A stretch of DNA of 64,000 nucleotides from Bacteroidales bacterium (GTDB lineage Bacteria > Bacteroidota > Bacteroidia > Bacteroidales > JAADJA01): the NCBI GenBank assembly GCA_020052415.1, contig JAGVPB010000078.1, forward strand, positions 62,001 through 126,000, read 5' to 3'. Positions within the stretch are counted from its first letter, which is position 1; every line of letters begins with the position of its first letter. Below the pieces are notes generated by a model. That model saw only the letters and a list, made by a program, of their open reading frames with translations. It was not told the origin of the DNA and did no database searches. Below are positions 26,543 to 62,690 of the stretch, one piece after another. The translations under genes and the position numbers were made by a program.

Positions 26543-26619
26543 GGTTACTGGTTTCTGGTTACTGGTTTCTGGTTTCTGGTTACTGGTTACTGGTTACTGG
26601 TTTCAAGTTCCAGGTTTCA
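26543..26619. repeat. heptanucleotide repeat tract, about 11 units
   Basis: Seven-base units GGTTACT and GGTTTCT alternate (eight units at 26543-26598), then GGTTTCA, AGTTCCA and GGTTTCA. The tract starts 7 bp after the PhoH stop codon. A related tract lies in frame in the U32 gene at 50269-50299. Confidence 0.85.
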
Positions 26620-26687: not shown

Positions 26688-26774
26688 TTACTAACTGGCA
26701 ATTAGTAATTTCATACTTTTTTACTAACTGGCAATTAGTAATTTTATTTAATTTTGCTAATTGACAAATAGTAA
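26688..26774. promoter_or_regulatory. three operator-like palindromes phased at 33 bp
   Basis: TTACTAA-N7-TTAGTAA occurs at 26688-26708 and again, identical over 24 nt, at 26721-26741. A third copy at 26754-26774 matches at 17 of 21 positions. Start-to-start distances are exactly 33 bp, about three helical turns, and the third copy ends 4 bp before the ATG at 26779. The arrangement suggests cooperative protein binding over the promoter of the ATPase gene. Confidence 0.7.
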
Positions 26775-26778
26775 AATT

Positions 26779-28035
26779 ATGAATAAAGCAGATTTAAAAA
26801 AGGTCATTATTTCCCAAGCTGAAAATTCAAGGGAAATAAAGTATGTCTCACGCGATAATAAATTTCAGGATAAAATCTCAGCAAATGATCCCTTTATAAG
26901 AATTATTACAGGAGTGCGAAGATGCGGAAAATCAACGCTCTTACAACATATCCGGGAAGGAAATGCCGAAAAAGACTTCGCTATAAATTTTGATGACAAC
27001 AGGTTAACTGGATTTTCGTCAGAAGATTTCGAAAAACTCTACGAAGCTTTTAACGAATTATTTAAAACGGAAAAAACATGGTACTTTGATGAGATTCAGA
27101 ATATTTCTGGTTGGGAAAGATTTGTCCGAAGACTTCATAACGAAGGCAATAAGGTATTTATCACTGGCTCGAATGCCAGGATGCTAAGCACTGAATTGGG
27201 TACTCATCTCACCGGAAGATATTTACAGACCGAGCTGTTCCCGTTTACTTTTGCTGAATACCTCCGTTTCGCAGATTTTGAAGTAAATGATAAAGATTTT
27301 TTTACTCCATCCAGAATTATAATCTTAAAGAAAGCTTTTCACGAATACGTAACACTTGGCGGATTTCCTGAATTTCTTCAAACTAAAAATCCCGATTACC
27401 TGAAGACCCTTTATGATAACATTATTTACCGGGATGTCGTTTCGCGGTATGGCATAAAAAACAGCCGGATACTTATCGAAATGGCGCACTTTCTTATTAG
27501 CAATATTTCGAAGGAAACCAGTTACAATGCTCTTAAAAAGAATTTTGGAATCGCCAATGCCGTTACCATAAAGGAGTACATCGGTTATCTCGAAAACTGT
27601 TATCTTCTGTTTTCTGTCAATAAATTTGATTATTCGCTGAAAAAGCAACTTGCCAATCCTAAAAAAATATATTGTATTGATACAGGCCTTGCCCATTTTA
27701 TATCCTTCAAGTTCAGCGAAAACAAAGGCAGGCAACTTGAAAATATTGTCTATTTACATTTGCGGAAAAGCAACTTCGACATCTATTACCATAAAAATAA
27801 TTTCGAATGTGATTTTATTGTTGTTAAAAACGCTAAAGCTGTTATGGCTATCCAGGTATGCCAATCCATTGACGACGCTAACACCCGGAAAAGAGAACTG
27901 AGGGGACTGGCTGAGGCAATGCAAATGTACAGCATACCAGTAGGCTATATTATTTCTGAAGATGAAGAAGAAACCATTGAGGAAACAGGTTTTACAATTA
28001 AGATTATTCCCATTTGGAAATATTTGCTGACTTAG
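26779..28035 (+). CDS. ATP-binding protein, AAA_14 / DUF4143 family
   Basis: 418 residues from ATG 26779 (MNKADLKKVIISQ); a TTG six codons earlier falls inside the third palindrome. Walker A is TGVRRCGKSTLLQHI, Walker B WYFDEIQNISGWERF, followed by VFITGSNARMLSTELGTHL, all typical of AAA_14. The middle (LYDNIIYRDVVSRYGIKN) is the DUF4143 winged-helix region. The C terminus (QLENIVYLHLRK, ECDFIVV, AIQVCQ) resembles a PD-(D/E)XK nuclease fold in which the E-x-K motif reads Q-V-C, so cleavage is doubtful. The cellular role of the family is unknown, and many Bacteroidota and archaea carry several copies. The palindromes directly upstream suggest tight, perhaps self, regulation. Confidence 0.9.
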   Translation: MNKADLKKVIISQAENSREIKYVSRDNKFQDKISANDPFIRIITGVRRCGKSTLLQHIREGNAEKDFAINFDDNRLTGFSSEDFEKLYEAFNELFKTEKTWYFDEIQNISGWERFVRRLHNEGNKVFITGSNARMLSTELGTHLTGRYLQTELFPFTFAEYLRFADFEVNDKDFFTPSRIIILKKAFHEYVTLGGFPEFLQTKNPDYLKTLYDNIIYRDVVSRYGIKNSRILIEMAHFLISNISKETSYNALKKNFGIANAVTIKEYIGYLENCYLLFSVNKFDYSLKKQLANPKKIYCIDTGLAHFISFKFSENKGRQLENIVYLHLRKSNFDIYYHKNNFECDFIVVKNAKAVMAIQVCQSIDDANTRKRELRGLAEAMQMYSIPVGYIISEDEEETIEETGFTIKIIPIWKYLLT

Positions 28036-28226: not shown

Positions 28227-28763
28227 GTGAAAAATATTCTTTTTCTTTGCTTATTTCCATTACTACTGAGTGCTCAAAACCCGGAACGATCATTCAGAAA
28301 TTCCCTGTCGTGCGAGTTTTCATATATAAGACCCATTTATAAGGAGTATTACCTTGAAAGATGGAGTAATAAAATGCTCCTTATTCATTATGAACGGACA
28401 TTATACAAGCATAAATTATTTAAGCTCACAACCGGGGGCGGCTTGGGAATTTCAGGTGAAGAATTAGGCGAGGTCACCGATCTTATTGCAAAGGTTAATG
28501 TAAATGCAGATTTTAAAAGTTATTTGGGAGGAAAAAAACATCTGTTTTTTTCAGGGTTAATTTTCAATAGTAATCCTTTTTACGGCCTTGTTCAAGTACT
28601 GATACCTGTCGGTTATCAATACAACTTTTTCCCAGGATTTTCGATGTACCTTTCCTATTCTCAATTTCTGTGTGGTTCAGAGATCATGGGGAAACCCTAT
28701 TGGAATTGGGAATTGATTCAAAACAGGTTTTTAGTTAATTTAGGAATCCGGATAAATTTTTAA
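28227..28763 (+). CDS. small exported protein, probable outer-membrane beta-barrel
   Basis: 178 residues starting at GTG 28227. The N terminus is a signal peptide (MKNILFLCLFPLLLSAQ). The rest alternates aromatic and polar residues in short strands (LFFSGLIFNSNPFYGLV, YQYNFFPGFSMYLSYSQF) and ends in NLGIRINF, an aromatic C terminus as in outer-membrane barrels. I do not recognise a family. It precedes a second barrel-like gene by 94 bp in the same direction; the two may be co-expressed. Confidence 0.7.
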   Translation: MKNILFLCLFPLLLSAQNPERSFRNSLSCEFSYIRPIYKEYYLERWSNKMLLIHYERTLYKHKLFKLTTGGGLGISGEELGEVTDLIAKVNVNADFKSYLGGKKHLFFSGLIFNSNPFYGLVQVLIPVGYQYNFFPGFSMYLSYSQFLCGSEIMGKPYWNWELIQNRFLVNLGIRINF

Positions 28764-61850: not shown

Positions 61851-62690
61851 ATGATAAGAACACAGATACGAGTTATCCTTTTGCTAACGATCTTCGTTTC
61901 CTTGCTTTCACCTTGCAGAGTATTCTCCCAGAAAGAAATCTCTGTTATTGCAAGAGGAACCTACGAAGCCCGTGATCTGACCCTGGAGGAAGTGAAGAAC
62001 AAAGCAATTGATGAAGCCAAGAAAAATGCAATGGTTCAAGCCGGAATTGCTGAAAATGTACAGGTATCTGATTTTCTTTACACTTTCGAGGACGATGAAA
62101 AGTTCAAAGAAATTTTTCAGTCATTCGTTTCCACTGAAACCGGCGCGGAAATTATGGTGGAGGACGTGCAGGAAATTAAGAGAGACATCAATGAATTCGG
62201 CAATATCCTGATCGAGGTAGAGATTTCCGCCGTTATTTACAAACATGATGACAAAAAAGATCCTTCTCTTGTAATAAAGGTTGATGGGATCAGGGAATAT
62301 TATGTTGAAAATGATCCGCTGGATTTCAGTTTCACACCTTCGAAAGACGGGTACCTGAAAATATTCAATGTAACGGATGCGACAGCTTTTATTCTATATC
62401 CATACAATGACCAGGCTTACAGTTACATGAACGATGATCCTGAAAGGATATTCAGGAAGAATGAAAAGGTCCGTTTTCCTGTCAATCGGAACATGGAATA
62501 TTATTATTTCGGTATTGATAATGAAAGTAAAGAGAAAGAATACAATCTGCTGATTTTTGTCTTAACAAAAGAGAATATTCCTTTTATGGAAGATGTAAAA
62601 GTAAATAACATCATGAAGTGGATTTATCAGATACCTTTGGAAGAAAGGATAGTTGAACAATACGGGATAGTTGTTAACAGGAAAAAATAA
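61851..62690 (+). CDS. exported LPP20 / DUF4384-type protein
   Basis: 279 residues from ATG 61851, giving a signal peptide (VILLLTIFVSLLSPCRVFSQ); the longer frame covers the repeats upstream. The first half (VIARGTYEARDLTLEEVKNK, AIDEAKKNAMVQAGI) resembles LPP20-like flagellar-assembly proteins. The second half (PLDFSFTPSKDGYLKIFNVT, ATAFILYPYND, PVNRNMEYYYFGIDN) follows the DUF4384 pattern, often found with caspase-like genes and regulatory proteins. It lies 18 bp before the next gene. Confidence 0.78.
   Translation: MIRTQIRVILLLTIFVSLLSPCRVFSQKEISVIARGTYEARDLTLEEVKNKAIDEAKKNAMVQAGIAENVQVSDFLYTFEDDEKFKEIFQSFVSTETGAEIMVEDVQEIKRDINEFGNILIEVEISAVIYKHDDKKDPSLVIKVDGIREYYVENDPLDFSFTPSKDGYLKIFNVTDATAFILYPYNDQAYSYMNDDPERIFRKNEKVRFPVNRNMEYYYFGIDNESKEKEYNLLIFVLTKENIPFMEDVKVNNIMKWIYQIPLEERIVEQYGIVVNRKK

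Follow-up and report, generated by a model that had tools for sequence, protein, structure and literature searches.

The DNA stretch analyzed here (the window: 64,000 nucleotides of a Bacteroidales bacterium, positions 62,001 to 126,000 of contig JAGVPB010000078.1) contains three 21-bp palindromes directly upstream of a gene for a 418 amino acid ATPase (26779..28035, plus strand; AAA_14 and DUF4143 domains in Pfam, family PDC-S01 in PADLOC), which raises the question of what protein binds these palindromes and how this binding affects the gene. A sequence-only reading of the window had proposed a protein array on one face of the DNA, made up of either the ATPase or a dedicated repressor. The results presented below support such an array and favor the ATPase over the dedicated repressor because the spacing of the palindromes follows the lineage of the protein across hosts. 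Judged from sequence comparison, each ATPase of this family probably binds its own operators and represses its own gene; binding, regardless of repression, is somewhat more probable still.

The dimensions of the array given in the sequence-only reading are all correct. The first two copies (26688..26708 and 26721..26741, no strand assigned) share the sequence TTACTAACTGGCAATTAGTAA, with the identity extending over 24 nt, and the third (26754..26774, likewise unstranded) matches them at 17 of 21 positions and is separated from the ATG at 26779 by 4 bp; both steps are 33 bp. Scored as a palindrome pair against 30 dinucleotide shuffles, these predicted operators yield a z score of 12.9, with 33 the best among lags 18 to 49. 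When up to three mismatches are allowed, the four strand-matches of the 21-mer in the window are confined to copies 1 and 2, and 100 shuffled versions of the window yield no match; a relaxed pattern recovers the three copies on both strands, with a shuffle mean of 0.09. Across the assembled genome of the host (4.67 Mb in 94 contigs, 97% complete, with the window on contig C9), just these three sites are found with at most one mismatch; six other strand-matches carry two mismatches and resemble the background, and a reversed control pattern produces 20 matches in all.

The palindromes at these three sites are part of something larger, a family-wide arrangement. Homologues came from the window's own order and from further classes of its phylum, and also from one named contig of a metagenome-assembled genome and from named plasmids. 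The first set of 83 genes was reduced to 75 by dropping six with doubtful starts (L008, L009, L032, L040, L052 and L077) and two duplicates (L061 and L073). One gene without a start (L198) was left out later, as were L151 and L152, the upstream regions of which are the same as that of L144, so that three Bacteroides CACC737 plasmids count as one case. The plasmid sample consists of 25 stretches from matching records (309 and 267, in overlapping sets), including two of the 175 matching Acinetobacter records. Among the resulting 226 upstream regions, no two are more than 70% identical without gaps, with some of the encoded proteins being close (e.g., L070 and L072). As controls, 142 upstream regions were taken from the same genomes as the family. 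The half-width in pair scoring was 10 in early runs and 9 later, with 30, 40 or 50 shuffles, and two of the runs used letter shuffles in place of dinucleotide shuffles; accordingly, the z score of a single gene shifts slightly between runs (L162 has 2.2 in one and more than 2.5 in another). The first-set pair score and the comparison with G+C-matched controls set family regions of 141 bp against control regions of 120 bp, whereas the final comparison used 120 bp upstream and equal settings for both, with nearly unchanged counts.

In this final comparison, palindrome pairs at z>2.5 precede 154 of the 226 homologues vs. 8 of the 142 controls, and at z>3, 141 homologues vs. 6 controls. The lag is 23, 32, 33, 39, 40 or 46 in 133 of these 141 homologues, compared to two of the 6 controls. 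The absence of similar repeats before homologues, which the sequence-only reading had named as the observation that would speak against it, is thus not what is seen. With controls matched for G+C, 4 of 101 exceed z 2.5, and a chance or low-complexity origin of the arrays is ruled out by the shuffles together with these matched controls. The same lags dominate the first set. The direct-repeat score of its 75 genes, compared to the 142 controls over the same upstream interval, is above threshold in 10 cases at lag 32, 10 at lag 33, two at lag 23 and one at lag 15, with none at the remaining lags from 14 to 70. The pair score (lags 18 to 49, z 3) picks out 47 of the 75 genes vs. 5 of the 142 controls, with family lags of 23 (6 genes), 31 (1), 32 (18) and 33 (22). 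Three to five copies are present in 50 of the 152 arrays to which a spacing class could be assigned (see below).

The arrangement is common to the family but the palindrome sequence varies by lineage. Sites of the form TTACTAA-N7-TTAGTAA, which had been expected before homologues, occur in part of the family, where six genes have near forms of the window palindrome TTACTAACTGGCAATTAGTAA (L051, L020, L021, L181, L188 and L201; 67% to 41% identical), and are not found family-wide, the arrangement being shared instead. A search for two relaxed window motifs 5 to 15 bp apart, with zero mismatches, matched one of 198 genomes, that of the window itself, so at this stringency the sequence is not conserved. 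Other palindromes include TTTCAGTTAACTGAAA, which precedes L036 and L086 and is one change off in L039, TTCGCAGTATATTGCGAA before L041, and TTGTTCATTAGTAATGAA before L169. In genome G071, L089 is preceded by AAGTTTCCNNTATANNGGAAA in three long copies with a 33-bp period, and the paralogues L081, L083 and L084 have palindromes quite unlike it; these four genes are a natural set for specificity testing. In the two genomes that were checked, that of the window and G087 (with L041), the operators were found only at their own gene.

The spacing of the palindromes falls into three classes. Among the 157 genes at z>2.5, 152 belong to one of them, with 53 near 23 bp, 83 at 31-34 bp and 16 at 39-41 bp (a lag of 46 was counted as two 23-bp steps), and five are outside all three. 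A quick maximum-likelihood analysis of 122 proteins places the genes of the 23-bp class in one clade (Shimodaira-Hasegawa-like approximate likelihood ratio test, 97) and those spaced at 39-41 bp in a second (99 in the same test), both of which also hold genes without a clear pair; the 31-34-bp genes are elsewhere on the tree. The 82 labelled genes in this tree require two class changes, the minimum possible for three states; a FastTree phylogeny of all 152 labelled genes requires five, compared to at least 51 in 100 shuffles. For 105 new loci, a prediction was fixed beforehand, namely that each would have the class of the best-matching labelled protein. Of these loci, 104 were usable, 73 had a pair at z>2.5, and in 67 of the 73 the predicted class was right (33 of the 23-bp class and 34 of the 33-bp class; the 40-bp class was never predicted), at a median identity of 53% to the predicting protein.

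The spacing is tied to the protein lineage independently of the host, within genomes as well as between distant ones. Of the 25 genomes that contain more than one labelled gene at z>2.5, 13 combine two spacing classes, as do 11 of 22 at z>3 and 7 of 14 at z>4. Conversely, proteins of the Ruminococcus albus (R. albus) type encoded on plasmids of Bacillota, Fusobacterium and Moraxella have lags of 39-40 (z 2.2-8.2), as do, weakly, those on three Bacteroides plasmids with a common upstream region (lag 40, z 2.0-2.8), and among nine R. albus-type genes in Bacteroidota chromosomes, seven have their best lag at 39-41 (z 2.2-10.4). The exceptions, L157 and L160, are without a 40-bp pair. Upstream of L160 there is one long interrupted palindrome, TATTAGCGAAACTTGCAAAAATTGCAAGTTTCGCTAATA, and upstream of L157 a degraded form of it, perhaps a different operator layout. 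Window-type proteins show lag 32 in Sulfurimonas (z 2.9) and, with a narrower half-site, in the archaeon Methanomethylovorans (z 3.7), and lag 33 on two plasmids of Bacteroides finegoldii (z 4.3 and 4.0). The simplest cause of these spacings would be a ruler encoded by the protein. Since the spacing tracks the lineage of the ATPase and not the host, the ATPase is most likely to be the protein that binds the palindromes and controls its own gene.

Covariation between protein and palindrome was examined with partial Mantel scans, which correct for overall identity and look for the protein stretch that best accounts for similarity between palindromes. The winged-helix region (about 235-290) had been singled out beforehand; its exact bounds, 241-282, were fixed after the first scan. 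In the first set, residues 241-282 give p 0.002, and within the 33-bp class the best max-statistic p is 0.048. In the larger set, residues 244-261 lead in the 23-bp class (r 0.30, max-statistic p 0.001), and in the pooled data the strongest stretches are residues 307-324 (p 0.014) and 244-261 (p 0.034). These results are suggestive, not proof, of a winged helix that reads the palindrome, and the C-terminal domain may touch DNA as well.

Several observations weigh against self-binding by the ATPase or against this reading of the covariation. No pair above z 2.5 was detected for 72 of the 226 homologues; a good pair is absent before the plasmid homologues from Sulfuricurvum, Acinetobacter (two), Arcobacter, Methanosphaera, Butyricicoccus, Phocaeicola and Runella, the upstream region in Calditerrivibrio shows a simple tandem repeat only, and Treponema and one Enterococcus have only a weak pair. 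Six of the 73 class predictions failed, with L180, L212 and L278 in another class and L237, L272 and L279 outside the classes, and with a wider half-site the best lag in Methanomethylovorans is 22. No stretch of the protein reaches significance by the max-statistic in the first set as a whole (best 0.18), where the p value for residues 241-282 is 0.12 after redundancy removal; in the larger set, the winged helix has p 0.06 after redundancy removal, and the 33-bp class is led by residues 400-417 (p 0.008), with the winged helix at 0.07. The new set alone is led by residues 373-390 (p 0.001; winged helix, 0.023), and the overall correlation between motif and protein is low (rho 0.13-0.14).

The loss of significance of the mean winged-helix covariation after redundancy removal would be compatible with a separate, dedicated repressor that is encoded elsewhere in each host and binds the palindromes. 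Such a repressor is nevertheless an unlikely explanation. The spacing follows the phylogeny of the ATPase even inside one genome, the many palindrome sequences would demand equally many repressors, and many plasmid copies of the ATPase gene look monocistronic among unrelated genes. Furthermore, the two neighbors of the window gene (one encoding PhoH, the other at 28227) are not found beside eight orthologues, within flanks of at most about 1.5 kb per side, where other neighbors were not screened locus by locus.

Binding by the ATPase itself is consistent with its predicted architecture. The window protein matches AAA_14 with 118.5 bits (cut-off 27), DUF4143 with 82.7 bits (cut-off 28.1) and the PADLOC model of PDC-S01 with E 4e-121, and has no match in NCBIfam. 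In the P-loop (Walker A, residues 45-52; 26911..26934, plus strand), the four checked positions are GRGK in all 226 homologues, and the Walker B acidic pair, in the form DEQ at positions 104, 105 and 107, is present in 221 of 226. Signal transduction ATPases with numerous domains (STAND) contain a GxP or GxxP motif after the nucleotide-binding domain and an hhGRExE motif at the N-terminus. The window protein has G194-G-F-P197, with P197 invariant and G194 conserved in at least 90% of the sequences in a 38-row alignment (A3); R25 is invariant in the same 38 rows, and the complete hhGRExE motif is not seen. Neither the window protein nor A3 had a credible sequence match in the PDB (best E 0.72 and 0.023, respectively). 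An AlphaFold2 model built from 22 sequences has a mean predicted local distance difference test score (pLDDT) of 86 and a predicted template modelling (TM) score of 0.87, in contrast to a pLDDT of 39 for single-sequence prediction. Foldseek matches to this model, a mixture of AAA+ proteins, have low query-normalised TM scores (0.22-0.30 among the 50 matches listed), so re-ranking with VIA was used instead; the matches extend over residues 16-310 of the predicted model, with STAND proteins at the top.

The model further shows a predicted winged helix at residues 229-299 (27463..27675, plus strand) with the recognition helix at 261-273, where pLDDT is 91-94 over residues 231-280 and lower (67-81) over 281-300, followed by a PD-(D/E)XK-like domain at residues 302-411 (27682..28011, plus strand). 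The motif residues of this domain are E321, E343 and D345, with Q359 and Cys361 at the Glu and Lys positions of ExK, so the window protein lacks the E, D and lysine-bearing ExK pattern of an active PD-(D/E)XK nuclease. The catalytic lysine is likewise absent in 217 of the 218 relatives outside the branch that retains the ExK motif, 213 of which have C, S, A or T in its place; the remaining sequence is cut short. Thus, according to the model, the window protein is a nucleotide switch of the STAND type, akin to plant nucleotide-binding leucine-rich repeat proteins (NLRs), combined with a winged helix and a nuclease-like domain without the catalytic lysine. The ExK branch, with an intact nuclease motif, consists of eight genes (L004-L007, L010-L012 and the plasmid gene L155), three of which (L004, L005 and L006) have an operator pair; the ExK and lysine-less branches coexist in genome G000.

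The place of the arrays suggests what the binding might do. Bacteroidota promoters have a -7 element with the consensus TAnnTTTG and a -33 element. Upstream of the window gene, TAATTTTG (26749..26756, plus strand), which follows copy 2, matches the -7 consensus. Copy 2 lies a short way upstream of this box, presumably where the -33 element is to be expected, and copy 3 covers the final 3 nt of the box together with the expected transcription start, so the operators overlap the predicted core promoter, a position fit for repression. The same consensus is found between -75 and -12 upstream of 101 of the 120 family genes considered (those at z>3, excluding plasmids and the 40-bp class) vs. 49 of the 142 controls. 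For 42 of the 63 genes in the 33-bp class, the center of the box is, modulo the spacing, 18-21 bp downstream of a palindrome center; in the 23-bp class, this distance is 17-19 bp for 25 of 38 genes.

This preferred distance to a -7-like box also bears on another possibility, in which the arrays are mainly targets of a different act of the ATPase, such as initiator-like loading, recombination or marking of self DNA, with any effect on the promoter being secondary. The fold neighbors of the ATPase include Orc1/Cdc6 bound to origin DNA, a nuclease-like domain follows the switch, and 309 plasmid records contain a relative, all of which would fit such an act. We consider it improbable given that the arrays keep their preferred distance to the box and that the catalytic lysine is missing almost throughout outside the ExK branch. 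Least probable is a host-wide factor, either a nucleoid protein or a global regulator that binds promoters: the preferred place of the arrays relative to a Bacteroidota-type box would agree with it, but the palindromes differ within one genome (L081, L083, L084 and L089 of G071), no further sites were found in either genome tested, the same architecture recurs in Bacillota, Moraxella, Fusobacterium and an archaeon, and the differences in spacing within hosts already largely refute it.

Under autoregulation by the ATPase, the palindromes would be private operators, each array being bound by the ATPase that it precedes. A dimer of the ATPase would grip each palindrome via its winged helices, and adjacent dimers would be placed about 23, 33 or 40 bp apart, with the distance set by lineage-specific packing of the protein on DNA. 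Because the array covers the core promoter, the gene would be repressed by its own product, and a signal acting through the nucleotide switch might release this repression. A more speculative version, which we offer tentatively, is that PDC-S01 is a STAND immune switch that rests on DNA: in the ADP-bound state it would occupy its own promoter as a phased array, and activation would release it, such that the alarm coincides with derepression of its gene in a single event. Should this be the case, PDC-S01 in restriction and CRISPR operons, such as those of Treponema and Arcobacter, would be their regulator and not an extra effector, and the operators with their spacings would represent a large natural code that links winged-helix and oligomer geometry to DNA.

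Two plasmid copies illustrate such contexts. L131, on the Treponema plasmid pTS1, separates hsdR from a methyltransferase gene within a type I restriction locus and has a weak 23-bp pair upstream, and L139, on pACLO of Arcobacter cloacae, is flanked by cas3 and cas4 within a type I-B cas operon.

According to one study, PDC-S01 ranks fourth in frequency among prokaryotic defense systems, with 9,986 copies in archaea and 29,494 in bacteria (39,480 in total), and belongs to candidates that were identified through guilt-by-embedding, i.e., as genes embedded in other defense systems, most of which await validation (PMC12988326). In rumen genomes, it is the most frequent individual locus (PMC13356809). 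The window protein agrees with the published description of a single gene, present in bacteria and archaea, for an ATPase fused to a PD-(D/E)XK-like domain; the accessible part of that description, however, catalogues PDC-S01 as a defense candidate and does not include DNA binding, promoter arrays or autoregulation (PMC12988326). No account of regulation of the DUF4143/COG1373/PDC-S01 family was found in the literature titles and abstract openings that were listed, a scope that leaves subscription papers mostly outside. In Thermus thermophilus, the DUF4143 gene TT_P0211 is up 6.6-fold with a plasmid in Argonaute-bearing cells (PMC4406477), which indicates that at least one family member is inducible.

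The order of nucleotide-binding domain, helical domain and winged helix is the same as in the STAND ATPases SSO1545, PAB2304, CED-4, plant NLRs and Avs5; the VIA Z scores are 16.1 each for PAB2304 and SSO1545 (2qen and 2fna), 15.6 for the NLR RPP1, 14.8 for CED-4 and 12.4 for the bacterial immune protein Avs5. Unlike these proteins, the window protein, with its 418 residues, leaves no room for a long domain of sensor repeats; instead, the lysine-less PD-(D/E)XK-like domain follows, and predicted sequence-specific sites are located at its own gene. Control of transcription by ATPases of this kind has precedents. MalT is a transcription regulator with a related ATPase. IniR, the ATPase domain of which is predicted to be SSO1545-like, binds the iniBAC promoter and regulates its transcription (PMC5760070); it differs from PDC-S01, for which the sites found are restricted to its own gene, by controlling iniBAC and by having a separate DNA-binding domain at the C-terminus. 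The NB-ARC domain of Rx1, a plant NLR, has been reported to bind DNA and to bend it, with no specific sequence target named in the accessible part of the report (PMC4599002), so that Rx1 and IniR together provide precedents for work on DNA by the STAND fold. RepA proteins of repABC plasmids are ATPases that repress their own operons, as proposed here for PDC-S01, but they belong to another, ParA-like family, and lineage-fixed spacing of palindromes is not mentioned for RepA in the accessible part of the source (PMC4492784). Self-operator regulation is of a known kind; a STAND family with lineage-specific, fixed-pitch arrays of its own operators would be a new form of it. The arrays indicate the most likely contact of PDC-S01 with DNA, its place and its geometry. 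Most PDC-S01 genes bring a ready-made ligand, which makes a first biochemical test easy, and the natural protein-operator pairs in three spacing classes are material for studying DNA recognition by an NLR-like module.

Between the PhoH gene and the operators of the window there is a simple repeat of eight tandem heptamers TGGTT(A/T)C (26549-26604); other runs of at least three such units are absent from both strands of the window. Scans of viral contigs with the window protein, alignment A2, the ExK protein L012 and the 23-bp-class protein L053 found no relative, whereas L143 led to four loci and A4 to 24. These loci (L290-L317) stand outside all counts given above; most of the ExK relatives among them are without a pair, and L290-L293 show lag 40 with z 2.4-3.6.
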